Virus record (IMG/VR): IMGVR_UViG_3300042887_000043 | Location: 1 to 25,948 of that record | DNA from: a virus | Length of the DNA stretch: 25,948 nt | Reading direction: 5' to 3' (one strand) | In this document: positions 536 through 13,522 of the stretch, piece by piece | How the letters are laid out: the number at the start of each line of letters is the position of its first letter | Position numbering within the stretch: the stretch's first letter is position 1 | The notes under the pieces: model-generated | Databases searched by the model: none | What the model was told of the DNA's origin: nothing | The model's input: the letters and a program-made list of their open reading frames with translations, nothing else | Program-made: the position numbers and the translations under genes

Positions 536-3500
536 ATGAGCCGTATTAAACGAGCAGTCAAGGGTTTTATCGATCCCATTACCACGAAGGTGGAAGACTG
601 GAAGTGGCGGGCGCTTGCTGACGTCGACAAGGAGCTCAAGCTCAAGGAAGTACCCGACTACATTCAAGGCGGCTACGGCGGCTTCATGGCCGACCAGCTC
701 AAGCGCGCAGAGGCCGGCGACCTTAACGCCCGCGACCTCATCAAGGCCTACACCATCACCCAGTCATCGATCGGGCGCGGTGGCCTGTCGCACGCGACGG
801 CAACCAAGCGCGGCTTGAAGCTGCCCAACACCGGCGGCGAAGTGCGCCCCGAGGGTGCCTTTGCCGAGTGGCTGGGCTCGCCCTTAGGGCAGCGCTACCT
901 CGACATGGCCGAGCGCGGCGAGCTCGATTCCAAGGCGCTCAAAGAAATCCAAGCGGCGTTCGCGCCCTTTGGCAAGCAGAACGATCAGGTGGCCAAGATG
1001 GAGTGGGCGGCGCAGAACCTGCCCGGCATGGCCACCGACCTCAATACCCGCGTGACCGGTTCGCTCGGCGACTGGCGCAACTACACCGACGAATTGCGCG
1101 GCATCGCGGCCGCCAAGTCAGGCTTCGTTGGCTCGCTGCTCGGCCGCGGCGACGTGCCCACGCTGGACGCGCGTCAGCTCAACCTGCACGGCACCACGCC
1201 CCCAGTCGGGCTGGGCTCGATTCAGAACCGCGGGGGCGGTGCAGGTGGGCGCGAGCTCGTCGATCGCCTGAGCGCACGCCAAGAGGCGCTTGGTCTTAAG
1301 CTTGACCCAAGCCTCAACCCCTTCTACCAGCACCTCGGCCACCACGCCGTCTGGGACAAGATCGGCAACACAGAAACCACACATGCGGACTTGGTGCGAG
1401 CGATGCGCGACTACAACAAGGGCGGTGCCGTACACATGGCTGGCGGCAGCTTAGTCAAGAAGGCTGCCAAGGCCGCCACCAGCCGCATTGACATGAACTA
1501 CAAGGACGTGACTCAGCGCACGCCTGAGCTGCAAGATGCGGCCAACAAGCTCATCGGTGGCGAGCTCTCGGCGGCCGAGTACGACGCGCTGGTCAACCAA
1601 TACAAACCCGTCACGCCCTACGCCACGGTGCCCACACCCGCCACGCGCGAGGAGGCCACCGGCGCACTCACGGCCGATAAGCGCGAGCGCTACGGCCTGC
1701 CATCGCAGACGCTGGAGCAAGGCCACCCGGTCGGACTGCGCCTTGACATCCCGTCGTACAGCAACCACGGCGTCTGGGTGCCCACCGTGCACGAGCAGGA
1801 ACCCGGCTTTGGGGCTGGCAAGAGCATCGGGCACGAGAGCGTGGCAAGCGTGCTTAACCCGCAGTTTGGCATGTCCGAGAAGGCCGCGCTGGCCATCGCG
1901 AGCGGTAAGCCCAAGGGCACGATCGCAACGATCAAGGGCGACTGGAATAAGCTGAGTGAGCAGGAGGCCGTCGAGCGCGCAAAGGAGTACCTGAAGAGCC
2001 CCGAGTGGCGTCAGGTGGGCATGGATCCCGAGCGGCACTCGTACTTCTACGACCGCGCGACTATGCAGCCCGTCACGAGCGCCGACGAGGCGCTGCAGAT
2101 CGGTCCGCTCGTGCTGGTGAAGAACCCCGTGTATGGCAAGAAGGAGGACTTTAAGTACGCCGCGGGCGGGATGGTTGACTCGGTGCCCGAGGAGGCGATC
2201 AAGAACATGGTTAAAGACCCACAGGCAGCACGACTGCTCGACCTTGATCTCGCCAAGTACGCGCTGATGAACCAGCCGCAGAAGATGGCCGCGGGCGGTA
2301 TCGCGCGCATGGCCGGCGGTGGTGCGCGCAAAGTAGCTAGGGACGCCTCAAGTTCAATTTTGAACAAAGGGTTTGAAGCACTGGAAGCGCAAGCAGCGCA
2401 AGCAGCCGCAGCCAACACGATTAAAGCCGCCGACCGGGCAGCAGCCGGGCGCGCAGCGGCAGCACAGATTGAAGCCCAGCCTGAAGTACCAATGTCAGAG
2501 GCGCTGGGCAATCTGAACACCGAGGGCAAACGGATAGTTGGCACCCAAGCCGATCGTACCCGCGTTGGGGGCGGCAACATTGGTGGTGCTCCCTTTTCCG
2601 CAATATCGCTGGCCGATCCTAACTACCAAGGTAAGGTCTGGGGCGTGGGTAGCCAAAGCGCTGCAAGTACGCTCACTAATCAAAACGACCCACGCACAAT
2701 TTGGACAACACTGCTGGGTTCAAAATTCCAGCTTAAGACCAATCCGATTGTGTTTGCCAAGCTTGAAAAAGAATTTAGACAAGCAATGAAAGACGGGAAA
2801 CTAAGCCCCGAGCTCGAAGCCAAGATCAATCACAACTTAGCGCTTAACTTTGGCGAGGGCGCTGACATCCGCGATCCGAACATTTGGAAGGCAGCCGACA
2901 GCTTTGATCGCCGCGCGGCATTGTCCGATATCATGATCGGCGAAGGCATCCCTCCTAGCAAGGGCGGCGTAGCGTTGGGCGGCGCGAAGAGCGGCAAGGG
3001 GGTTATTTTTGATCCGCTTAGCATCCTCACTCGTGAGACGGAGCCCAGCCTTCGCGGCGATGTACCCACCTTTTCGCTCGGCCCGCGTCTGTTCACGATG
3101 AGTGGCGAGACGTCGTTTCGCCCTGACTTACATCCCGGCTTTCCAATGCTGCTTCACGGCGAAGACCTTGGGTTTAACGTGCGTCCGGTGCCCAACGAGA
3201 TTGCGCTGCCTGATTATCGTACCGAGTTTGCACGACGTAATCCTACGCGCGATCCCAGCTACTACGATCTGACCAAAGGCTTTAAGGGTGAAGGCCTGCC
3301 CAGCCAGATGATCACTGAAGAGTGGTTGAGTCATTTGCAAAAGCACGGCCATAAGGACGGCGGCGCGGTGCATATGAAGGACGGCGGCAAGGCCGACGAG
3401 GACCTCTTCGCGCTCAAGCCCCAGCCCAAGCCGGCCATCCCGACGGTGCGAGAGCTCGTTGCTGAGATCGGCAAGAACCCTGCGCGCTACGAAGCACCAT

Positions 3501-6500
3501 ACCCGCCCAAGGACGCGACACCGGCTCAGATGCAGGCGTACCGACTGATGCAGGCCGCAAAGACGACGCCCGACGCCAACCGCTACCTCGAGTCGCTGAA
3601 CCCGTACTTTGACTCGCAGCTCCGCTTTGACATCGGCGCGGGCAACGAGGCAGGGTACGTCAAGTTCAAGGAGCCAAACATCGCGGTGATGCAGAAGCTC
3701 GAGGACGTGAAGAACACGATCCCCCACGAGCTCACGCACACGCTGCAGCTCGGCAAGGGCGCAGGCGTTGAGCTCGAGCGCGACCGCCAAGTCATGCAGC
3801 GCGCGCAGGCGCTACCTGCTGCAATGCAACAAAGCGTGCTGCCCTCTGATAATCGTTTTGAGAACATGAAGGAAGTCTGGGCGAACGTCAACGCCCGAGC
3901 ACACGAGGTCAACGCCGCAGGTGGTGACTTCATCAACTCGCCCGAGGGGCGTGCGTTGTTCCCCACGCCCGAGATGCAGCGCGAGTACTACACGAAGTCG
4001 ATGCCGGGCGTGAACAGCATGACGCCCAGCACCGGCACGTTTGTGCCGAATCGCAGGTACGCAGACGGCGGTGGCGTATTTAACCCACAGGGTTCTGACT
4101 ATGACTACCAGACGGCTCGCGCTTACGGTATGGGGCAAGGTGACGGCAACTGGGGCTCAGTCGCACCGGCGTCAGAAGGAGAGCGCAAGCTGCATGGCCT
4201 GCCCGAGGACAGCTACCTCATGCTTAAAGGTGCACAACATCCTACATGGGGTAAGGCTGTTGAGGCAGAAGAGTCTCGTGGCTCAAAGGTCGTCAAGTAT
4301 GGCGATCGTTACTACTCTGTGCCCAAGAAGGCCAACGGCGGTCAAGTGCAGCGTTTTGATGACGGCGGCGAAGTCAGCCAGTCAGAGCTTGATCGCATGC
4401 GCTTTGAGATTGCGCAATCCCAGAACCCGACTAGCCCCGTGATGCAGGCGACACCGCGCAGTGCGATGCAAGACGCGATCGGCACGTTCGGTGGCTACAT
4501 GGATCGTGCCGGCAAGTTCGTGAGCGAGGCGATTGCGCCGACCGCCGAAAAGCACCCGGTCAAGCACTTCCTCGCGGATCTGATTCTGGCTGAGTCGCTC
4601 AAGAGCGCCGGCACCGCGTTGCAGGACTACACGGGCACCGCACGCGAGGCAGACGAAGACAACCCCGTGCGCGGCGTTATCAGTAAGGACTGGCGCAATC
4701 TGACTACGAGCCGGGAGCCCCTACTTGACCCGCGCGCGTTGGACATCGCGGGCTTTGCAACACCAGTCGTCAGGGGTGCAACGAAGCTTGCCCGAGTGGG
4801 TGCGAAAGCTGTTGCCCCGTTTGCAACGAGGGTCGACGACATGGTGCGTGAACTCAGCGCGTCAGGCGCGATCCCGCAGCCGGGTCTGTCAATCAAGGAT
4901 GTCACACCCAAGGCTCTTGCCCCCGCCAACGCGCAGGGCTTCTACTCGCCCACCGAGGCTGCTGCATTGAACCTGCAGCGCAAGTCTGGCAGCGGGCAGG
5001 CGCTCTTGAACGACGTCTTGAAGGGCGAGAACGTGCGCGCGGAAGAGGTCAGCAGGATGGGGCTCGATACGTTCCTGAAAGATAATCCCAACGTCACGGC
5101 CGCCGAGGTGCAGGACTACATCGCCAAGAATAAACTACAACTGGGCGACAGGACCTACAAAAAAGAAAACGTGAAGTGGGGTGAGAATGAGAACGGTGAG
5201 ATAGTCACTGAGAACTTGCCGAACCCGTACACGATTTCAAGCGAGTACGGTAAGACGTACATCACCAATTCCAAAAACAATACGTTAGGCATAACGTTTA
5301 AAAACGAGGCAGAAGCTAAGAAGTACATCGAGGACTTGGTCGTCGATGACGCCCTGCTGCCCAACGACCTGAAGTGGGCGCAGTGGTCGCTACCCGGTGG
5401 CGAGAACCACCGCGAGGTCACCCTGAACCTGCCAAGCGGCAAGCGCGAGGACATGGTGTACAAGGAGCAGAGCCTTGAGTCGCTCAAAAGAGGGGCGCTA
5501 GACTACGCGGCAATGGGCGACCTCAGCAGCGCCAAGCAGCTCTCAACAAGAGCCGAGAAGCTCGAGCGCGAGATCGAGCAGTTAAAGCGTCAACCACAGA
5601 ACCGCACGCCCGAGTTTCCCAAGCAAGCCGAGATTGATGACTTAGACGCGCGCATGGCGCAGCTAAAGGCCGAGGGTAATCGTGAAGAATTTGGCAAGCT
5701 ACAGAGTGAAAGAACCGAGCTGCGTGCTGAGCGCAGTGCGTACTTAGCGCGCGAAGAAGCGCGGCTTCAAAAGGAAGCATACACAAATCAATTCCGCGAA
5801 TCGCACTGGGAGGACCCCAACGTGCTTGCCCACCTGCGCATGAGCGACCGGGTCACCGACGGCAAGAAGACGCTGTTAGTTGACGAGGTGCAGTCTGACT
5901 GGCACCAGAAGGGTCGTGAGCGCGGCTACAAGGGCGACGAGATTGACACCACTGGCTGGGAGGTGGAACACCTCTACGCCACCCGGCCTGACGAGGTTGC
6001 CGTGTATGACGCCCGCGGCAAGGAAATCTGGGCGGGTAAGGTAAAAGGCGACGATGCGCAGGCAATAGAAAAGGTTGTCGAGGAGCTTAAGAAGAAGCAG
6101 GTGCCACAAGCCCCATACAAGGACGACTGGTATCAGCTTGTACTGCGCCGCGCAATCAAAGAGGCAGTTGATGGTGGGTACGACCGCGTGGCGTTACCCA
6201 CTGGCAGCGAAGTGGCGCAGCGGTTTGGTATGGGCAATCTCATCGATCGTATTGACTACCACAAGAACTCCGACGGCACTTACGGACTATCAGCCATCAA
6301 AAACGGTCGCGAAGTCGTTGCGAGGGAGTACCTTAAGCAAAACGAGCTTTTTGATATTGTTGGCAAAGAAATGGGGGAGAAAATGGCTAAGGGTCAGGGT
6401 AAGGACTCGGTTCCAATTGATCCTGACTTGGCAGAAGAGTACGGGTTTGATTCTTATAAATCACTCACAGGTCTTGATCTTGTTGTTGGCGGCAAGGGTA

Positions 6501-6742
6501 TGAAGAAGTACTACGACGAGGTCTACCCTAACTACCTTAAAAAGTTTGGCAAGAAGTACGGCGCAACTATTGGCGAGACGACCGTTGACGCGGACGGTGT
6601 AGCCAAGCCACTGCGCTACATGGATATCACACCAGCAATGCGTGAAGAGTTTAAGACTGGTATTCACATGAAGCGTGGCGGCAAGGTGTCGTTCGCCTCA
6701 AACGTTGACGCAATGCGTCATGAATTAACACAAAGGCAATAA
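536..6742 (+). CDS. Giant modular polyvalent-type phage protein (2068 aa) with HExxH metallopeptidase module
   Basis: A single uninterrupted frame lies between terminase and portal. Modules I can separate: (1) about residues 1-220, helical, ending in GFVGSLLGRGDVPTLDARQ; (2) about 398-535, with RQVGMDPERHSYFYDR, resembling a large-polyvalent-protein-associated (LPD) domain; (3) about 660-935, beginning GTQADRTRVGGG; (4) about 955-1175, a zinc-peptidase-like module with HELTH at 1064-1068; (5) about 1185-1262, with YDYQTARAYGMG and a late HPTW; (6) about 1280-1460, helical; (7) about 1468-1540, starting GFYSPTEAAALNLQ; (8) a coiled coil at about 1650-1750; (9) about 1774-1900, with DEVQSDWHQKGRERGY and GGYDRVALPTG, a segment widespread in phage and plasmid polyvalent proteins. 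GG-x-V motifs (G296, G544, G942, G1179, G1268, G1277, G2048) fall mainly between modules. Iyer, Burroughs and Aravind proposed that polyvalent proteins are carried into the host with the DNA to counter defences; applying this here is inference. Activity of the peptidase is unproven. Confidence 0.8.
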   Translation: MSRIKRAVKGFIDPITTKVEDWKWRALADVDKELKLKEVPDYIQGGYGGFMADQLKRAEAGDLNARDLIKAYTITQSSIGRGGLSHATATKRGLKLPNTGGEVRPEGAFAEWLGSPLGQRYLDMAERGELDSKALKEIQAAFAPFGKQNDQVAKMEWAAQNLPGMATDLNTRVTGSLGDWRNYTDELRGIAAAKSGFVGSLLGRGDVPTLDARQLNLHGTTPPVGLGSIQNRGGGAGGRELVDRLSARQEALGLKLDPSLNPFYQHLGHHAVWDKIGNTETTHADLVRAMRDYNKGGAVHMAGGSLVKKAAKAATSRIDMNYKDVTQRTPELQDAANKLIGGELSAAEYDALVNQYKPVTPYATVPTPATREEATGALTADKRERYGLPSQTLEQGHPVGLRLDIPSYSNHGVWVPTVHEQEPGFGAGKSIGHESVASVLNPQFGMSEKAALAIASGKPKGTIATIKGDWNKLSEQEAVERAKEYLKSPEWRQVGMDPERHSYFYDRATMQPVTSADEALQIGPLVLVKNPVYGKKEDFKYAAGGMVDSVPEEAIKNMVKDPQAARLLDLDLAKYALMNQPQKMAAGGIARMAGGGARKVARDASSSILNKGFEALEAQAAQAAAANTIKAADRAAAGRAAAAQIEAQPEVPMSEALGNLNTEGKRIVGTQADRTRVGGGNIGGAPFSAISLADPNYQGKVWGVGSQSAASTLTNQNDPRTIWTTLLGSKFQLKTNPIVFAKLEKEFRQAMKDGKLSPELEAKINHNLALNFGEGADIRDPNIWKAADSFDRRAALSDIMIGEGIPPSKGGVALGGAKSGKGVIFDPLSILTRETEPSLRGDVPTFSLGPRLFTMSGETSFRPDLHPGFPMLLHGEDLGFNVRPVPNEIALPDYRTEFARRNPTRDPSYYDLTKGFKGEGLPSQMITEEWLSHLQKHGHKDGGAVHMKDGGKADEDLFALKPQPKPAIPTVRELVAEIGKNPARYEAPYPPKDATPAQMQAYRLMQAAKTTPDANRYLESLNPYFDSQLRFDIGAGNEAGYVKFKEPNIAVMQKLEDVKNTIPHELTHTLQLGKGAGVELERDRQVMQRAQALPAAMQQSVLPSDNRFENMKEVWANVNARAHEVNAAGGDFINSPEGRALFPTPEMQREYYTKSMPGVNSMTPSTGTFVPNRRYADGGGVFNPQGSDYDYQTARAYGMGQGDGNWGSVAPASEGERKLHGLPEDSYLMLKGAQHPTWGKAVEAEESRGSKVVKYGDRYYSVPKKANGGQVQRFDDGGEVSQSELDRMRFEIAQSQNPTSPVMQATPRSAMQDAIGTFGGYMDRAGKFVSEAIAPTAEKHPVKHFLADLILAESLKSAGTALQDYTGTAREADEDNPVRGVISKDWRNLTTSREPLLDPRALDIAGFATPVVRGATKLARVGAKAVAPFATRVDDMVRELSASGAIPQPGLSIKDVTPKALAPANAQGFYSPTEAAALNLQRKSGSGQALLNDVLKGENVRAEEVSRMGLDTFLKDNPNVTAAEVQDYIAKNKLQLGDRTYKKENVKWGENENGEIVTENLPNPYTISSEYGKTYITNSKNNTLGITFKNEAEAKKYIEDLVVDDALLPNDLKWAQWSLPGGENHREVTLNLPSGKREDMVYKEQSLESLKRGALDYAAMGDLSSAKQLSTRAEKLEREIEQLKRQPQNRTPEFPKQAEIDDLDARMAQLKAEGNREEFGKLQSERTELRAERSAYLAREEARLQKEAYTNQFRESHWEDPNVLAHLRMSDRVTDGKKTLLVDEVQSDWHQKGRERGYKGDEIDTTGWEVEHLYATRPDEVAVYDARGKEIWAGKVKGDDAQAIEKVVEELKKKQVPQAPYKDDWYQLVLRRAIKEAVDGGYDRVALPTGSEVAQRFGMGNLIDRIDYHKNSDGTYGLSAIKNGREVVAREYLKQNELFDIVGKEMGEKMAKGQGKDSVPIDPDLAEEYGFDSYKSLTGLDLVVGGKGMKKYYDEVYPNYLKKFGKKYGATIGETTVDADGVAKPLRYMDITPAMREEFKTGIHMKRGGKVSFASNVDAMRHELTQRQ

Positions 6743-6744
6743 CT

Positions 6745-9297
6745 ATGGCCACTGAAATGCCAATCCCTCAGGACTTCGGTCGCTTTATCCCGCCCGCGGC
6801 GCAGGGTGACAACGAGTTCGCAAGCAGCGAGTTCGGCGACGTTGCCGAGGTCGACCTGTTCAAGCAGCCTGAGGTTGAGGAGCAGGACGACGGCTCAGCG
6901 ATTGTGCGTCTAGATGATGACACGCTGGGGCCAGAAGACTCACCGGACTTCTACGAGAACTTAGCCGAAAGCATCCGTGCGTATGACTTATCGGGCATCG
7001 CGTCTAAGTACATCGAGCTCGTTGAGAAGGACAAGGACGCCCGCGAAGGTCGCGACAAGCAGTACGAGGAAGGATTGCGTCGCACAGGACTTGGGCAAGA
7101 CGCCCCCGGTGGCGCATCTTTTATGGGTGCCAGTAAGGTCGTGCACCCCATCATGGCCGAGGGCTGCGTGGACTTCGCAGCGCGCGCCATCAAGGAGTTG
7201 TTTCCACCAGACGGGCCAGTGCGCTCAAAGATTCTGGGCGAGGTGACTGAGCAGAAGACGATGATCGCCGAGCGCAAGCGCGATTACATGAACTACCAGT
7301 TGACCGAGAAGATCGAGGAGTACCGTGACGAGGAAGAGCAGCTCTTAACCCAGTTGCCGCTCGGTGGCTCGCAGTACATGAAGATCTGGTACGACGAGAG
7401 CAAGCGCCGTCCGTGCGCCGAGTTCCTGCCGATCGATAACGTGTACTTGCCCTTTGCCGCGGCGAACTTTTACACCGCGAGCCGTGTGACCGAGGTCAAC
7501 GACATCACGCAAGACGACTTTGAGGCTCGCGTCTCATCAGGTCTGTACATCGATCTTGACATCTACCGTGCGAGCCAAGAGCCTGAGGAGAGTAAGCCTG
7601 AGAAGGCGAACAACAAGATTGAGGGTCGCAAGTCAGAGTCTGACAACATTGACGGCGTGCGCCGCGTGTTCCACATCTACACGTGGATGGAGCTCGAGGA
7701 CGATCAGAAGTCCAAGGGCGAGCGTGCGCCCTACATCCTGATGATCGATGACCTGTCGTCCGAGGTCGTGGGTCTGTACCGTAACTGGGAAGACGGCGAC
7801 GAGCTCATGACTAAGCTCGACTGGATCGTTGAGTTTAAATTCATCCCTTGGCGAGGTGCGTATGCCGTTGGTTTGCCCCATCTTATTGGCGGTCTGTCTG
7901 CTGCTCTTACTGGTGCTTTGCGGGCTCTGCTTGATTCTGCTCATATAAACAACGCCCCCACGATGCTCAAGCTCAAGGGTGGCAAGGTGTCTGGCCAGAG
8001 CATTGTTGTCGAGCCCACGCAGGTCACGGAGATTGAGGGTGCACCGGGCGTGGACGACGTGAGAAAGATCGCGATGCCGATGCCGTTTAACCAACCCTCT
8101 GCGGTGTTGTTTCAGCTTTTAGGCTGGCTTACATCGGCGGCTAAGGGTGTAGTGACTACCGCCGAAGAGAAGATCGCTAACGTCACCTCTAACGCCCCCG
8201 TAGGCACCACGCAGGCGCTGATCGAGCAGGGTGCTGCGGTGTTCTCATCCATCCACGCGCGGCTGCACACAAGCCAAGCACGGGTGCTCAAGATCATCGG
8301 GCGCTTGAATCGCTGGTACTTGGATGACAACCCTGACGAGATGAGTCAAGAGTTAGGCGTCACCTCAAAGGACTTTGAGAAGAACTCTGACGTTGTACCA
8401 GTGTCGGATCCCCACATCTTTGCGGAGTCACAACGCTATGCACAAGTACAGGCTCTCGCCGCACGCGCGCAGGCGAATCCAGACCTATACAATCGACTGG
8501 CTGTTGAGAAGCGAATTCTTAAGCAGATCAAGCTTCCTGATATCAATGAAGTGCTACCTGATCCGCAAGACGTTAAGGAAATGAACCCCGCGCTTGAGAA
8601 CGTCGCCATGACGCTTGGTAAGCCCGTTGGCGCGTTTCCCAACCAAGAGCACTTAGCGCACATGCAAGTTCACTTGGACTACGCCAAGGACCCTATGTAC
8701 GGCGCAAGCCCCATCATGGCCCCGGTGTTTATCCCCGCGATGCTTGAGCACTTAAAGCAGCACTTAACGCTCTGGTACCTGAACTCGATGGACCGGTACG
8801 CGTCTGACGCGCTAGGCGAGCAGTTTGATATCTTGAAGGTGCAACCCATCATTCAGGAGGCGCAGAAATTGCTTGCAGCGAGCTCGCAGCACGTGCACCA
8901 AGACACGCAGCAGCAGTTTGCGGGTGTGGTGCCGATCATGCAGCAGATGATCCAGACCATCCAGCAACTTAAAGCGCAGCAACAGCCTACTGATCCGTCA
9001 GTGCAGGCGCTTGTTCAGACCCAGATGGCCGAGACTAACCGTAAGGCGGCAGAGGATCAGGCTCGTTTACAGCTTGATGGCGCAAAACTCGCGGCAGATA
9101 CGAAGGCCAAGCAGGAGAAGAACGTTGCCGACCAGCAGATTAAGGCGGCAGAGCTCACGCACGACATCAACTTACTCACGCTTGAGCAGCAGCACGAAGC
9201 ACAGCGTCAACAACTCGCAGCACAACAGCAGCAACAATTAGCAGCACAACAAGCAGCACAACAATCCCAACCTGAAGCACCACCCCAAGGAGTTTAA
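6745..9297 (+). CDS. Portal (head-tail connector) protein
   Basis: The 850-residue product has the length and block pattern of large podovirus portals. Recognisable segments are VHPIMAEGCVDFAARAIKELFPP (about residues 130-155), the acidic YRDEEEQLLTQLPLGGSQYMK region, the GLPHLIGGLSAALTGALRALLDSA helix-rich crown/wing segment, and PSAVLFQLLGWLTSAAKGV before the long helical C-terminus. The last ~150 residues are Gln-rich and predicted helical or coiled coil, ending in a low-complexity AAQQ run. Role by family: a dodecameric ring at one head vertex, the channel through which terminase pumps DNA and the platform for the adaptor. AAAGG about 10 bases upstream of ATG 6745 serves as ribosome site; the gene starts 2 bases after the giant gene stops. 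Near the N-terminus DGSAI (49-53) is shared with the scaffold. Confidence 0.88.
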   Translation: MATEMPIPQDFGRFIPPAAQGDNEFASSEFGDVAEVDLFKQPEVEEQDDGSAIVRLDDDTLGPEDSPDFYENLAESIRAYDLSGIASKYIELVEKDKDAREGRDKQYEEGLRRTGLGQDAPGGASFMGASKVVHPIMAEGCVDFAARAIKELFPPDGPVRSKILGEVTEQKTMIAERKRDYMNYQLTEKIEEYRDEEEQLLTQLPLGGSQYMKIWYDESKRRPCAEFLPIDNVYLPFAAANFYTASRVTEVNDITQDDFEARVSSGLYIDLDIYRASQEPEESKPEKANNKIEGRKSESDNIDGVRRVFHIYTWMELEDDQKSKGERAPYILMIDDLSSEVVGLYRNWEDGDELMTKLDWIVEFKFIPWRGAYAVGLPHLIGGLSAALTGALRALLDSAHINNAPTMLKLKGGKVSGQSIVVEPTQVTEIEGAPGVDDVRKIAMPMPFNQPSAVLFQLLGWLTSAAKGVVTTAEEKIANVTSNAPVGTTQALIEQGAAVFSSIHARLHTSQARVLKIIGRLNRWYLDDNPDEMSQELGVTSKDFEKNSDVVPVSDPHIFAESQRYAQVQALAARAQANPDLYNRLAVEKRILKQIKLPDINEVLPDPQDVKEMNPALENVAMTLGKPVGAFPNQEHLAHMQVHLDYAKDPMYGASPIMAPVFIPAMLEHLKQHLTLWYLNSMDRYASDALGEQFDILKVQPIIQEAQKLLAASSQHVHQDTQQQFAGVVPIMQQMIQTIQQLKAQQQPTDPSVQALVQTQMAETNRKAAEDQARLQLDGAKLAADTKAKQEKNVADQQIKAAELTHDINLLTLEQQHEAQRQQLAAQQQQQLAAQQAAQQSQPEAPPQGV
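9217..9264 (+). repeat. Gln/Ala-coding low-complexity repeat at the portal C-terminus
   Basis: The 11-base unit gcagcacaaca occurs at 9217, 9241 and 9253, surrounded by further CAA/CAG codons, giving an AAQQ-rich tail on the portal. Such simple repeats can change length by slippage. The portal barrel of P22-type portals is also C-terminal and helical, so the tail may extend a barrel, but this is inference. Confidence 0.7.
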
Positions 9298-9778: not shown

Positions 9779-9894
9779 GGTCGGGCTTTTGATAAGGGTC
9801 ACCGACCTAACCACTCGGCTTTAGAGTTGACGCCTCGGAAAGACGAGGATAACCGCGCCGAATGGCGCTTTTAACCAAGTGCCGCATGGCGCTT
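9779..9894 (+). promoter_or_regulatory. Leader of the co-chaperonin gene with several short inverted repeats
   Basis: Four possible stems occur in this non-coding stretch: GGTCGG/CCGACC (9779-9784 with 9802-9807, 17-base loop), CCTCG/CGAGG (9833-9837 with 9844-9848), GCGCC/GGCGC (9855-9859 with 9864-9868) and AAGTGCC/GGCGCTT (9877-9883 with 9888-9894). The last ends 3 bases before the AGGAG ribosome site at 9897-9901. A 12-base direct repeat (atggcgctttta at 9862 and 9886) lies in the same stretch. Individually the stems are short and could arise by chance; their clustering next to a promoter and a ribosome site makes a regulatory leader plausible. Confidence 0.35.
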
Positions 9895-9906
9895 TTAGGA
9901 GTGAGT

Positions 9907-10317
9907 ATGAAGGACTTTGAGACCCTCGACGAGGCGTTCCCGCAGTGTGTGCACGGCATCACCCCTCTTGGCGCTCGAGTGTTGTTACAGCTCAAAAGCG
10001 TCAAAAAAGCAAGTAAAGGCGGCATCATCCTCGTTGAAGAAACACGCGAAACTGAGCGTGCGCAGTCAATGATCGGCAAGGTCTTGGCACTCGGTCCGAT
10101 CGCATTTAAAAACCGTGACACTTTATCCGAATGGGGCGAAGGAATTTGGTGCTCAGTCGGCGACTACGTGCGCGTACCGCGCTGGTCAGGCGACCGGTTC
10201 ACGGTGCCCAACCCGAACGACGCAGAAGACCAAGTTTCACTGCAAATCCTGAACGATTTTGAGTTGTGGGCGAAGGTTGACCCTGACCAAGTCTTGACCA
10301 TGAGGCAATTCGTATGA
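9907..10317 (+). CDS. GroES-like co-chaperonin
   Basis: I start at ATG 9907 because AGGAG ends 5 bases before it; two further in-frame ATGs upstream (9862, 9886) lie in a repeat without ribosome sites. The 136-residue product follows the GroES plan: GITPLGARVLLQL (first strand), a mobile-loop-like KKASKGGIILVEE whose IIL matches the GroEL-binding hydrophobic anchor, SMIGKVLALGP, then CSVGDYVRVPRW, and a final SLQILNDFELWAKV strand. It is longer than host GroES (about 97 residues) and T4 gp31 (about 111), the extra length lying between the strands (GPIAFKNRDTLSEWGEG) and at the C-terminus. Phage co-chaperonins pair with host GroEL, in T4 to fold the capsid protein. The location next to scaffold and upstream of the capsid gene fits that. 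The stop overlaps the scaffold start (ATGA). Confidence 0.85.
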   Translation: MKDFETLDEAFPQCVHGITPLGARVLLQLKSVKKASKGGIILVEETRETERAQSMIGKVLALGPIAFKNRDTLSEWGEGIWCSVGDYVRVPRWSGDRFTVPNPNDAEDQVSLQILNDFELWAKVDPDQVLTMRQFV

Positions 10318-11267
10318 ACCCGACAGAAAAAATGGAAATGCAGGTCGACGAGGAGCAAGACGGCTCCGCGATCGCCCAGTTACCCGAGGGCGAAGCGCCC
10401 GAAAACGACGAAAAGGTTGAACTTGCCGAGGGCGGTGACGTTGATGCCAACGACGGGCTTGATAAAGACCCCGATCGTGAGGCAATTCGCGCTGCCCGAC
10501 GCGAAGAGCGTCGACTCAAGAAGTCTATTCACCGTGAAAAGACAAAAGAGTCCAGCCACCTGATCAATAACCTGCGCACACAGAACCAGCAGCTCTCGGA
10601 GCGCTTGGCGCACCTTGAAAAACGCACCTCTGGGGCTGAATTAGCCCGTGTTGACAAGGCGATTGACGACACCGAGGTGCAGATCGAGTACGCAAAGATG
10701 AAAATGCGTGAGGCGGTCGCAAATCAGGACGGTGACGCAGTCGTCAAGGCTCAGGAGCTGATGTACGAGTCGCAGCGCAAGCACGAATCCTTGAAAAACA
10801 TCAAGGATCAGGCAACACGCCAGATGTCGCAGCCACCCAAGCCCACGATGAACGTGCCCGACCCGTCCGTTCAGCGCAACGCCGCCGAGTGGATGGAGCG
10901 CAACCCGTGGTACGACCCACAGGCCAAGGACATGGACTCGGAAATCGCCCAGCGTTTGGACAAAAAGCTCACCGACGAGGGTTATGACCCATCTTCGCCC
11001 GATTACTGGGAAGAGCTTGATGATCGCGTGTCAAAGTACTTGCCTCACCGCACCGGTACTGCAGCACCTGCCCGTGCAGCCCAACGCCCACGCATGACAG
11101 GCTCTGGGCGCGAGTCTGCGCCGACTGGGCGTGGTAACGAGTTCAGGCTCTCTGCTGACCGCGTGCAGGCAATCAAGGACATGGGCGCGTGGGATAACCC
11201 CGATCAACGCGCCAAGATGATCAAATCCTACGCAAAATATGACCGTGAAAACAAAAGGAATACATAA
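10314..11267 (+). CDS. Capsid scaffolding protein
   Basis: The 317-residue, very charged protein starts by a 4-base ATGA overlap with the co-chaperonin. The N-terminus is acidic (DEEQDGSAI, EGEAPENDEKVELAEGGDV), followed by a long basic then heptad-like coiled coil (about residues 55-165, including RREERRLKKSIHREKTKESS and NNLRTQNQQLSERLAHLEKR), and a C-terminal part with NPWYDPQAKDMDSEIAQRL and a basic tail (SYAKYDRENKRN). This profile and the position just before the capsid genes are those of podovirus scaffolds, which fill the procapsid and leave before or during packaging. Basic C-terminal helices contact the capsid protein in P22-like systems. It shares DGSAI with the portal N-terminus and contains one GG-x-V motif (residues 40-43). 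No prohead protease gene is seen. Confidence 0.8.
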   Translation: MNPTEKMEMQVDEEQDGSAIAQLPEGEAPENDEKVELAEGGDVDANDGLDKDPDREAIRAARREERRLKKSIHREKTKESSHLINNLRTQNQQLSERLAHLEKRTSGAELARVDKAIDDTEVQIEYAKMKMREAVANQDGDAVVKAQELMYESQRKHESLKNIKDQATRQMSQPPKPTMNVPDPSVQRNAAEWMERNPWYDPQAKDMDSEIAQRLDKKLTDEGYDPSSPDYWEELDDRVSKYLPHRTGTAAPARAAQRPRMTGSGRESAPTGRGNEFRLSADRVQAIKDMGAWDNPDQRAKMIKSYAKYDRENKRNT

Positions 11268-11794
11268 TGGATAGCCGCTTAAAACGAAGTGCTGGCGAGA
11301 GCCGCAACAACCGTACCGAGCAAGACGCATCGCGTGCAGCGCCCGAGGAGAACTTTCCGATCGTGCGTGAGCGTCGTCGTGCGCGTAACGAGTTTCAGCA
11401 GACCGTGTTGCCAAACATCCCCGAGATCCCCGGCTTTCACCTCTGCTGGCTCGCCACAAACAGCCAGTACGACCCAATTCATCGTCGTTTCTCGCTAGGC
11501 TACACGCCTGTGCGAGCCGACGAGATGCCCGGCTACGACATGTACAAGGTCAAGGAAGGCGACCAGTCTGGCCACATCATGTGCAACGAGATGCTGCTTT
11601 GCAAGATGCCGATGGATATTTATCAGGACATCATGCTCGAGCACCACCACTTCCAGCCGATGGACGAGGCAGATAAGATCCGCGTCGATCAGGAGCAGCT
11701 CGTAAGTCAGCGCGACCGCTCAGGTAAGGCCGCGGGCAGCATTGAGGGCAGCTTGCCAGATGAAAGTAACGTGAAATTGCCACACTTTAGTTAA
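11267..11794 (+). CDS. Conserved-type head-region protein of unknown function
   Basis: The 175-residue product starts by a one-base overlap of scaffold TAA and its ATG, with AAAAGGA about 8 bases upstream. The N-terminal 50 residues are basic and probably disordered (RRRARNEF). The core has IPGFHLCWLATNSQYDPIHRRFSLGYTPV and GDQSGHIMCNEMLLCKMPMDIYQDIMLEHHH, followed by a charged helical tail. I recognise this pattern from genes placed between scaffold and capsid in related uncultured podoviruses, but know no function. The Cys and His residues (C in HLCWL, C in IMCNEM, C in LLCKMP, EHHH) are suggestive of metal binding but not arranged as a standard motif. A minor head or completion protein is plausible. 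The coding region ends before the AT-rich leader, which may mark the end of this transcription unit, although no terminator is seen. Confidence 0.65.
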   Translation: MDSRLKRSAGESRNNRTEQDASRAAPEENFPIVRERRRARNEFQQTVLPNIPEIPGFHLCWLATNSQYDPIHRRFSLGYTPVRADEMPGYDMYKVKEGDQSGHIMCNEMLLCKMPMDIYQDIMLEHHHFQPMDEADKIRVDQEQLVSQRDRSGKAAGSIEGSLPDESNVKLPHFS

Positions 11795-11799
11795 CTTGC

Positions 11800-11827
11800 T
11801 TTACTTTTAAAAAATTAGTATTAAAAT
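11800..11827 (+). promoter_or_regulatory. Candidate promoter for the decoration/capsid genes
   Basis: TTTACT (11800-11805) is followed after 16 bases by TAAAAT (11822-11827), giving 4/6 and 5/6 matches to sigma70 consensus in the most AT-rich stretch of the window. An alternative pairing is TTGCTT (11796-11801), 17 bases, TATTAA (11819-11824). Location just after a gene end and 140 bases before the decoration gene supports a dedicated promoter for the most abundant virion proteins. Confidence 0.5.
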
Positions 11828-11837
11828 ATGCTGCATA

Positions 11838-11930
11838 TGGATGCCCGCTTTGTAAAAAGCAGGTATCCACACCAAATTTAGTCCTAAAAATCATGTTTCA
11901 GATGATTTTGCCTGTAGCTTTGAAGAAAGC
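11838..11930 (+). promoter_or_regulatory. Structured leader with three consecutive hairpins before the decoration/capsid genes
   Basis: Hairpin 1 pairs 11838-11851 with 11856-11869: about 13 pairs with one C-A mismatch and one G-U pair, closed by the four-base loop GTAA, a GNRA-type tetraloop in RNA. Hairpin 2 pairs AAAATCAT (11887-11894) perfectly with ATGATTTT (11902-11909), 7-base loop. Hairpin 3 pairs GCTTT (11917-11921) with AAAGC (11926-11930), 4-base loop. They lie between the candidate promoter and the ribosome site AGGAG (11959-11963). None is followed by a proper T-run after a GC stem, so termination is not the obvious role; mRNA stabilisation, processing or translational control are possible. 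I do not recognise a known riboswitch. Confidence 0.6.
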
Positions 11931-11969
11931 GAAAACATTATCCCTTTAACTGTTTTTTAGGAGCATCCT

Positions 11970-12557
11970 ATGAGTGCAACCTCTGCACCTTTTGGCCTGC
12001 GACCTGCGTATTTCCCAACAGGGTTGGAACGCGCACAAGCTCTGGCTAATGGCATCACCTCGGGCTACGGCACCTCGATCTTAAAAGGTCAGGCTGTTCA
12101 GTACTCGCCAAACGCTGGCGTCATCTTGCCAGTTCTGGACACAACAACCAACAGCGGCTTAGTCTCTGGTGCCTTCGCAGGCGTCGAGTGGACTGACACA
12201 ACTGGTCGTCGCCGTGTCTCTAACTACTGGCCTGCAAGCACTACTGCAATCGCCGGTAGCGTCGTCGCCTATTTCTACAACGACCAACAAATCGTCTACG
12301 AAATTCAGACTGACGCAACTATGGCTCAAACTTCGATCGGTAACGAAGCGAACTTGAGCAACTTCACTGCAGGTTCTACCACCACTGGTCTGTCACAGAT
12401 GACTCTGTCGGCATCGCTTGTTGGTTCAGGCAGCACTGGTCAGTTCCGTATTGTTGATATTGCACCATACCCAGATAACAACTGGGGCGATCCTTTTGTG
12501 ATCGTTCGTGTACAGGTCAGCAACCCTCAATTTGTGGCTGCTAAAGCCGCTATCTAA
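11970..12557 (+). CDS. Probable capsid decoration (head-stabilising) protein
   Basis: The 195-residue product is beta-rich and starts PFGLRPAYFPTG, with GYGTSILKGQAVQYSPNAGVI, FAGVEWTDTTGRRRVSNYWPA and a C-terminal WGDPFVIVRVQVSNPQFVAAKAAI. Short beta-barrel proteins of this kind sit directly upstream of the capsid gene in many podoviruses and are generally taken as decoration or head-stabilising proteins; family assignment here is by pattern recollection, not by search. AGGAG at 11959-11963 gives a good ribosome site, and 11 bases separate the stop from the capsid gene, so the pair is translated from one mRNA. The gene is preceded by the three-hairpin leader. A head fibre subunit would be the alternative reading. 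Codon use is relaxed compared with the GC-richer scaffold. Confidence 0.62.
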   Translation: MSATSAPFGLRPAYFPTGLERAQALANGITSGYGTSILKGQAVQYSPNAGVILPVLDTTTNSGLVSGAFAGVEWTDTTGRRRVSNYWPASTTAIAGSVVAYFYNDQQIVYEIQTDATMAQTSIGNEANLSNFTAGSTTTGLSQMTLSASLVGSGSTGQFRIVDIAPYPDNNWGDPFVIVRVQVSNPQFVAAKAAI

Positions 12558-12568
12558 GGAGAACTGAT

Positions 12569-13483
12569 ATGGCAGCTCCAATGCGCAGTACGGACTTCCG
12601 ATCGATTGTTGAGCCAATCCTCAACGAATGCTTCGACGGAATCTATGACCAACGAGCCGATGAGTGGAGCACAGTGTTCCGCGAGCAAATGGGCATCCCA
12701 CGTAACTACCACGAAGAACCCGTCCTGTACGGATTCGGCGCAGCACCTCAGTTACCTGACGGCACCCCCGTCTCGTACCAGCAGGGCGGCGTGCTGTTCC
12801 TCCAGCGCTATGTGTACAACGTCTACGGCTTAGCCTTCGCGTTGACCAAAGTTCTGGTTGAGGACGGCGACCACATCCGTATCGGTCAGGTCTACGCTAA
12901 ACACTTAGCGCAGTCGTTGATTGAGACAAAAGAACTGCTCGCAGCTAACGTATTGAACCGTGCGTTCAATAGCAGCTACGTCGGCGGCGACGGCGTTTCA
13001 CTCACCAACACCTCGCACCCGATCGTCAACGGCGTGTTCAGCAACCAGCTCACGACCGCAGCTAACTTGTCGCAAACTTCGCTTGAGCAGATGCTCATCC
13101 AAGTGCGTCAAGCTGTGGACAACAACGGCAAGAAGATCCGTCTTCAGCCGCTGAAGCTGATTGTTGCACCCGGCAACGTCTTCCAAGCAGAAGTCCTGCT
13201 CAAGTCTGTGCTCCGCACCGGCACCGCCAACAACGACATCAACCCAGTCAAGTCGATTGGTCTGATGCCCGAGGGCGCTTCGGTACTGAGCCGTTTGACT
13301 TCAGCCACCAACTGGTGGGTGCAGACTGACGCGCCAGAAGGTCTGAAGTTGATGATGCGCCGTGGTCTTGAGAAAACGATGGAGGGCGACTTCGAAACTG
13401 ACTCAATGCGCTACAAGGCAACAGAGCGGTACACGATTTCGTGGACTGATCCTCGCGCAGTGTACGGCACGCCCGGCGTGTAA
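12569..13483 (+). CDS. Major capsid protein
   Basis: The 304-residue product fits a HK97-fold major capsid protein. Visible elements are an N-terminal arm (FRSIVEPILNECFDGIYDQRADEW), an extended loop region (QMGIPRNYHEEPVLYGFGAAPQLPDG), a long spine-type helix region (YAKHLAQSLIETKELLAANVLNRAF), SNQLTTAANLSQTSLEQMLIQVRQ, then PLKLIVAPGNVFQAEVLLKSVL, typical for the P-domain of this group, and a C-terminal W-V-Q-T-D segment followed by YTISWTDPRAVYGTPG. AAGGAG lies 8-10 bases before the ATG. There is no N-terminal scaffold/delta domain or protease gene, in agreement with a separate scaffold gene. The short intergenic gap to the decoration gene and a terminator right after its stop define a two-gene unit likely expressed at very high level. 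Confidence 0.88.
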   Translation: MAAPMRSTDFRSIVEPILNECFDGIYDQRADEWSTVFREQMGIPRNYHEEPVLYGFGAAPQLPDGTPVSYQQGGVLFLQRYVYNVYGLAFALTKVLVEDGDHIRIGQVYAKHLAQSLIETKELLAANVLNRAFNSSYVGGDGVSLTNTSHPIVNGVFSNQLTTAANLSQTSLEQMLIQVRQAVDNNGKKIRLQPLKLIVAPGNVFQAEVLLKSVLRTGTANNDINPVKSIGLMPEGASVLSRLTSATNWWVQTDAPEGLKLMMRRGLEKTMEGDFETDSMRYKATERYTISWTDPRAVYGTPGV

Positions 13484-13490
13484 AGCAACA

Positions 13491-13522
13491 GGGGCTAGTC
13501 CAAAAGATTAGCCCCTTTTTTT
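13491..13522 (+). terminator. Strong intrinsic terminator after the major capsid gene
   Basis: A 10-base stem GGGGCTAGTC (13491-13500) pairs with GATTAGCCCC (13506-13515) around loop CAAAA, with one G-T pair, and is followed at once by seven T residues (13516-13522). This is the textbook layout of a Rho-independent terminator and the clearest one in the window. It begins 8 bases after the capsid stop codon. Confidence 0.92.

Follow-up and report, generated by a model that had tools for sequence, protein, structure and literature searches.

The window, i.e., the whole stretch of DNA that was analysed, is a virus record of 25,948 bases that includes a head module. Here, the gene for the portal (6745-9297) is followed by those for a GroES-like co-chaperonin (Cpn10, 9862-10317) and two proteins of unknown function, after which a gap precedes the first gene of an operon and the major capsid gene. 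The Cpn10 gene lies between the portal and capsid genes; Caulobacter phage RW and MW202545 have it as well. The region at 536-6742 encodes a protein of 2068 aa, which was matched only distantly, by phrog_7348, a very large phage protein with an endolysin annotation.

The gap of 175 bases, which the original prediction placed in front of the decoration and capsid genes, is located exactly at 11795-11969, from the stop codon of the open reading frame at 11267-11794 to the ATG at 11970. It is followed on the plus strand, where all features described below are also found, by a gene at 11970-12557 (phrog_37556, unknown function, no Pfam match) and by the major capsid protein gene at 12569-13483 (PF25209, phrog_4523). 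The protein model of the first gene has a pLDDT of 84 and its best fold matches, which are weak, are capsid chains of Sf11, Pam3 and TW1; the modelled product is a probable decoration or cement protein. A strong intrinsic terminator (13490-13522) immediately after the capsid gene ends this two-gene unit. A terminator-like hairpin 3' of the capsid gene was found in 38 of 47 relatives that carry the element discussed below, in 78 of 114 relatives that do not and in 3 of 154 shuffled sequences. The Shine-Dalgarno (SD) sequence AGGAG (11959-11963) is located 6 nt 5' of the ATG and is invariant in the leader alignment. In the window's clade only, the SD sequence could also pair with a UCCU that adjoins the start codon (AGGAGCATCCT, 11959-11969).

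The gap folds at -42.5 kcal/mol, compared to -28.2 +/- 3.7 kcal/mol for dinucleotide shuffles (z -3.9, 0/200). No family reached the gathering cut-off of Rfam 15, the best permissive match being 20 bits against a cut-off of 48, which is in line with the proposal that the gap may hold an undescribed RNA element. A search of the gap for an intrinsic terminator or attenuator, i.e., a GC-rich stem with a U run, found none.

The three hairpins and their occurrence among relatives

Three hairpins are found in the gap. Hairpin 1 (11838-11869, or 11839-11868 when delimited more narrowly) has the loop GUAA (11852-11855) and a stem with one G-U pair and one mismatch, which is a C.A mismatch (11846/11861). 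Hairpin 2 (P2) at 11887-11909 is a perfect helix of eight pairs (11887-11894 with 11902-11909), while hairpin 3 (P3) at 11917-11930 has five pairs (11917-11921 with 11926-11930) in the arrangement GCUUU-GAAG-AAAGC, where the loop is of the type GNAN. All three stems had been anticipated in this form and at these places by the original prediction, where they were taken to stand simply in series, but part of the 5' arm of hairpin 2 lies in an SD-complementary stretch. The minimum-free-energy (MFE) structure of the window is without hairpin 2, and the stretch overlapping its 5' arm pairs with the ribosome site instead.

IMG/VR was scanned with three kinds of query, i.e., the capsid protein, decoration proteins from three clades and a DNA pattern for the motif. 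These scans yielded 64 unique leaders with the motif, of which 62 were complete enough for use, and a further 130 unique spacers that lack it. Because the pattern fixes P3 and a part of U1, the strand that pairs with A1 in P2 (see below), the protein-based loci were also used to judge invariance, and the two agree. All element-like matches of the gene-independent pattern scan were found directly 5' of the same gene, which encodes M-S-x-x-S-A-P-F-G, and the remaining matches lie inside unrelated sequence. A covariance model (87 sources) also gave matches only in front of this gene, and the element was found as well in one contig of a metagenome-assembled genome (MAG) labelled as a beta-proteobacterium (L435). 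Related head genes are found in a series of such contigs (L435-L444) assigned to widely differing bacteria, i.e., beta-proteobacteria, Cellvibrio, Akkermansia, Opitutae and others, which are probably binned phage contigs.

The element is patchy on the gene tree, where 58 loci have it and 108 do not, with at least 8 changes compared to 48 for shuffled labels; these trees and the clade assignments are based on one gene. The closest pair with and without the element (L115 and L286) is separated by a decoration-protein distance of 0.04. In phages without the element, the gene usually starts 14-45 bases after the upstream gene. In many of these relatives (L081 5000, L255, L262 and others), a small hairpin, e.g., CCCGTATTTTCGGGTAA, is found at the end of the upstream gene, where it overlaps with the stop codon; it lies about 10-20 bases 5' of the next SD sequence and is possibly linked to translational coupling.

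Conservation of promoter and hairpins

A promoter-like motif, TTTACT-16-TAAAAT (11800-11827), is located directly 5' of hairpin 1. Taken alone, this originally predicted candidate promoter does not exceed the chance level, i.e., two such motifs were found in the region where 2.4 are expected, but a -10-like hexamer recurs in the relatives. Among 43 leaders from outside clade B, 41 have a best -10 hexamer that ends 46-59 nt 5' of A1 and is often an exact TATAAT.

Among 22 relatives from the window's clade, 94.3% of the cells in the stem of hairpin 1 are paired and double compensatory changes are seen in 6 of the 12 pairs, with 28 double-changed cells compared to 7.9 in shuffled data. The loop sequences are GCAU (9), GUAA (5) and GUAU (4), also GUAC, GUAG and GAAC, i.e., they follow GNAN, and the special GNRA loop that had been assigned to this hairpin is not retained. 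The hairpin top in this clade, UUUGNANAA, is the same as that of P3. Other clades harbor a different hairpin of other sequence at the same place, 3' of the -10 hexamer. Hairpin 1 probably forms the 5' end of a presumed mRNA that has its own promoter.

When RNAalifold was applied to 41 leaders, exactly two hairpins were predicted, P2 and P3. In P2, double changes are found in three pairs (19 cells compared to 3.0 in shuffled data), and across the 62 leaders the helix contains 34 G-U pairs whereas A-C mismatches are absent, from which it follows that P2 acts as plus-strand RNA. The P3 sequence (GCUUUGNNNAAAGC) is almost invariant over the same 62 leaders, the only variants noted at the protein-based loci being L204 and L292, and covariation can therefore not speak for this hairpin. 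Its invariance suggests that the sequence itself is recognised, likely as a protein-binding site. Feedback by the coat protein, one of the roles originally considered for the first stem, may occur, and from conservation the nearly invariant P3 would be a more likely site for it. All three hairpins are real and have been maintained by selection as RNA; the compensatory changes found for hairpins 1 and 2 bear out the view of a selected RNA fold rather than a terminator.

A helix predicted to close the ribosome site

The stretch named A1 (CCUAAAAA, 11883-11890) is complementary to the SD region, and its 3' part is also part of the 5' arm of P2. In the MFE structure of the window, A1 is paired with U2 (UUUUUAGG, 11954-11961) to form a helix, P1, in which the start of the SD sequence is included. 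Because P1 and P2 use common A1 bases, they cannot both form in full. The central feature of the leader is this pair of mutually exclusive folds, which was absent from the original prediction. P2 belongs to the SD-open state, P1 to the SD-closed state, and P3 is present in both predicted states.

Both pairings were evaluated in an alignment-free strand-swap test, in which strands are exchanged between leaders. For A1 and the SD strand, i.e., P1, the native combinations gave -7.34 kcal/mol compared to -5.90 kcal/mol for permuted combinations (0/2000), and for A1 and U1, i.e., P2, the corresponding values were -7.38 and -6.01 kcal/mol (0/2000). A control with U1 and U2 gave no signal. Since relatedness alone can give rise to such a signal, the test was repeated on the gene tree with a null model in which A1, or the SD strand, evolves freely. 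For P1, the outcome was 15/1000 with A1 evolving and 0/1000 with the SD strand evolving (control 868/1000); for P2, it was 0/1000. In phylogenetically independent pairs, P1 was better in 6, worse in 1 and tied in 8, and P2 was better in 6 and worse in none. The exchanges in P1 include CCUA/UAGG vs CUUA/UAAG, A and U tracts that are both shorter in L008 and L179, and a G-C pair in L290. A fixed-column alignment shows double changes in just one P1 pair.

In clade B (the L036-L047 group) the leader is only 100-120 bases long, and the closing helix continues over the linker between the SD sequence and the AUG, where it covaries outside the SD sequence (5/5000; 0/1000 on the tree). Inside clade B alone, the covariation of P1 was not significant (302/1000). 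The leader L041 has an extra CGCAA 5' of the SD sequence that is complementary to its own UUGCG and lengthens the pairing.

The total pairing of the SD sequence, 0.868, does not exceed the value for shuffled leaders in which the SD sequence and start were kept (0.856), because AU-rich RNA and the gene start pair with the SD sequence in any case; the value for relatives without the element is 0.784. Closure itself is thus not distinctive, only the specific P1 helix is. In the closed state, the AAC of a conserved UUAAC (11946-11950) can pair with the GUU (11895-11897) of the P2 loop. This pairing (P1b) gave 4/3000 in the swap test over all leaders, and in independent pairs the outcome was a weak 10 vs 8. 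No covariation was seen for the pairing Px (GAUUUUG with CAAAAUU), and the inner pairs of the rod (P1b and Px) are accordingly weak or unsupported. An A2-U2 pairing was also rejected on lack of covariation.

The energies of the two states were compared by forbidding the A1-U1 pairs in one calculation and the A1-SD pairs in the other. At 20 C, the SD-closed state comes out as the more stable one in 59 of the 62 leaders, with a mean predicted difference of 5.9 kcal/mol, while the exceptions (L005, L310-type and L078) are near parity or favour P2. When the transcript of the window is allowed to grow, with equilibrium calculated at each length, the probability of P2 is 0.97-0.99 up to position 11956 and that of P1 is 0.97 at 11964.

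Several other candidates were considered for parts of the leader and rejected. A short open reading frame at 11892-11947 (ATG TTT CAG ATG ATT TTG CCT GTA GCT TTG AAG AAA GCG AAA ACA TTA TCC CTT TAA) was rejected as coding, because the relatives differ in the frame from U1 to P3 (distances modulo 3 of 29/18/15) and stop codons are found after 4-22 codons or not at all. A U.A-U triplex of the A tract and both U tracts was discarded; the exchanges CCUA/UAGG vs CUUA/UAAG fit antiparallel Watson-Crick pairing. A palindrome, origin or other element at the DNA level is contradicted by the G-U pairs, which are found for the plus strand only, and by the fixed position relative to the SD sequence. The sequence GCUUUGAAGAAAGC, which we take to be similar to lambda boxB, was not retained as a boxB-like antitermination site; its loop has four bases.

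A proposed control of head-protein synthesis

Comparison of the relatives shows that P2, P1 and hairpin 1 are maintained, that selection acts on the RNA strand and that the element has a fixed position on the SD sequence of one gene. Beyond this comparison, we infer a folding order in vivo, an effect on translation and the binding of a protein. The gap would be the 5' untranslated leader of the decoration-capsid mRNA, probably transcribed from its own promoter. In one state (I), P2 and P3 would be formed and the ribosome site would be free of A1. In the other state (II), A1 would leave P2 and pair with U2, such that a long rod is formed, with P3 at its tip and the closed SD sequence at its base. 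P2 would be an early metastable state, which can form during transcription about 50 nt before the SD sequence emerges, while the rod would be the stable end state. New transcripts would then load ribosomes as long as P2 holds A1, and molecules that are not kept open by ribosomes would close later, which would result in a timer or limiter of head-protein synthesis. P3 would probably be bound by a phage or host protein that tips the choice of state. In clade B, the upstream stop codon is found about 17-28 bases 5' of A1, so a terminating ribosome could also keep the closing strand open.

The 5' arm of P2 overlaps the SD-complementary stretch, which makes translational control preferable to stabilisation of the mRNA or its processing alone, both among the originally suggested roles. 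Because a conserved local hairpin together with an exclusive, more stable SD-closing helix is what delayed folding needs, we propose that the leader, together with a promoter and a 5' hairpin of its own, switches or times translation by delayed folding, and consider this reading reasonably probable.

Leaders that hide the SD sequence in one of two states are already known from an RNA phage and from lambda cIII. In the leader of the MS2 maturation gene, as described in PMC6582335 (where Poot 1997 and van Meerten 2001 are cited), an upstream sequence complementary to the SD sequence closes the ribosome site, and an early local hairpin delays this closure. Similarly, an upstream SD complement pairs in the stable fold of the leader studied here, as indicated by comparison and prediction, and the local hairpin P2 is predicted to trap A1 first (at equilibrium per length). 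In contrast to the RNA phage MS2, the element is here found in a DNA phage, on a head operon with a probable promoter of its own, and there is no sequence relation; the invariant hairpin P3 and the covarying 5' hairpin go beyond the MS2 leader as outlined in that source. The lambda cIII mRNA adopts two mutually exclusive folds, of which one occludes the ribosome-binding site, and shifts between them with temperature (PMC4166951). The likeness is that of a DNA phage mRNA with two exclusive folds around the ribosome-binding site, but the gene and the anatomy differ and little temperature effect is predicted here. The candidate structured RNAs manA and wcaG, identified by comparative genomics in cyanophages (PMC2864571), are also conserved, found mainly in metagenomic phages and located 5' of one kind of gene; unlike these RNAs, the element described here is linked to phage head genes rather than to host-metabolism genes and has no Rfam match. 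It is a separate conserved RNA family on DNA phage head genes that is not in Rfam. In the literature searched, mostly outside subscription papers, no description of a phage capsid leader switch was found.

The near-invariance of P3, although a plain stem could covary, is what an autogenous operator would explain, i.e., the binding of P3 by the decoration protein, the capsid protein or some other protein from phage or host, which would lock the SD-closed rod and thereby match supply to assembly. Hairpin 1 would be an additional site where it is topped by UUUGNANAA, as in the window's clade, and the restriction of the element to head genes also fits. However, a near-identical decoration protein is found without the element (L115 vs L286), head genes work in its absence, and the decoration model weakly resembles capsid cement proteins rather than RNA-binding proteins; we regard an operator of this kind as unlikely, if the least so of the alternatives. 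A similarly doubtful option, given slightly less weight, is a plain strong leader with an mRNA-stabilising 5' hairpin, an AU-rich standby site and a strong SD sequence, in which the complementarity of A1 and the SD sequence is incidental. The finding that total SD pairing does not exceed that of shuffled leaders is consistent with this option, as is the region before the SD sequence (UUUAAC...UUUUAAGGAG), which resembles the T7 gene 10 leader (V01146). The site g10RBS of T7 is a known combination of an SD sequence and an enhancer site (PMC8748333), and in both cases a UUUAAC and a U/A-rich stretch precede the strong SD sequence of a major head gene, although no homology is claimed. The P2/P1 exchange and P3 set the present leader apart from that of T7, and a plain leader leaves the covariation of A1 with the SD sequence, the extension over the linker in clade B and the conservation of P2 and P3 unexplained.

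An RNA thermometer, in which temperature would shift the equilibrium between P2 and P1, would share with lambda cIII (PMC4166951) the design of an open or closed ribosome-binding site in two exclusive conformations, but the predicted occupancy of P1 is nearly flat, with mean values of 0.86 at 10 C and 0.81 at 37 C, which makes a thermometer very improbable. The specific FourU type was rejected; the SD sequence pairs with CCU/CUU of A1, and the U tract with the A tract of A1. At least as improbable is a processing site, where RNase III would cut the long rod and thereby remove or free the ribosome site. The rod is long, and in L041 it is a near-continuous helix, but there is no conserved cut motif and the inner pairs of the rod are without covariation support.

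To our knowledge, little is known about post-transcriptional control of the dose or timing of head proteins in tailed DNA phages. A bistable capsid mRNA leader whose two folds are both backed by evolutionary evidence is a concrete system that can be tested with reporters, and relatives with and without the element on nearly identical head genes offer natural controls. The timer that we propose would bring delayed-folding control, known from an RNA phage, to the structural genes of DNA phages. More speculatively, and with low confidence, the promoter, 5' hairpin and bistable leader may constitute a modular cassette, acquired and lost 5' of the head genes of freshwater DNA phages, in which a head protein bound to P3 tips the delayed-folding switch. 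If true, this would be a new family of phage regulatory RNAs that couples capsid translation to assembly.
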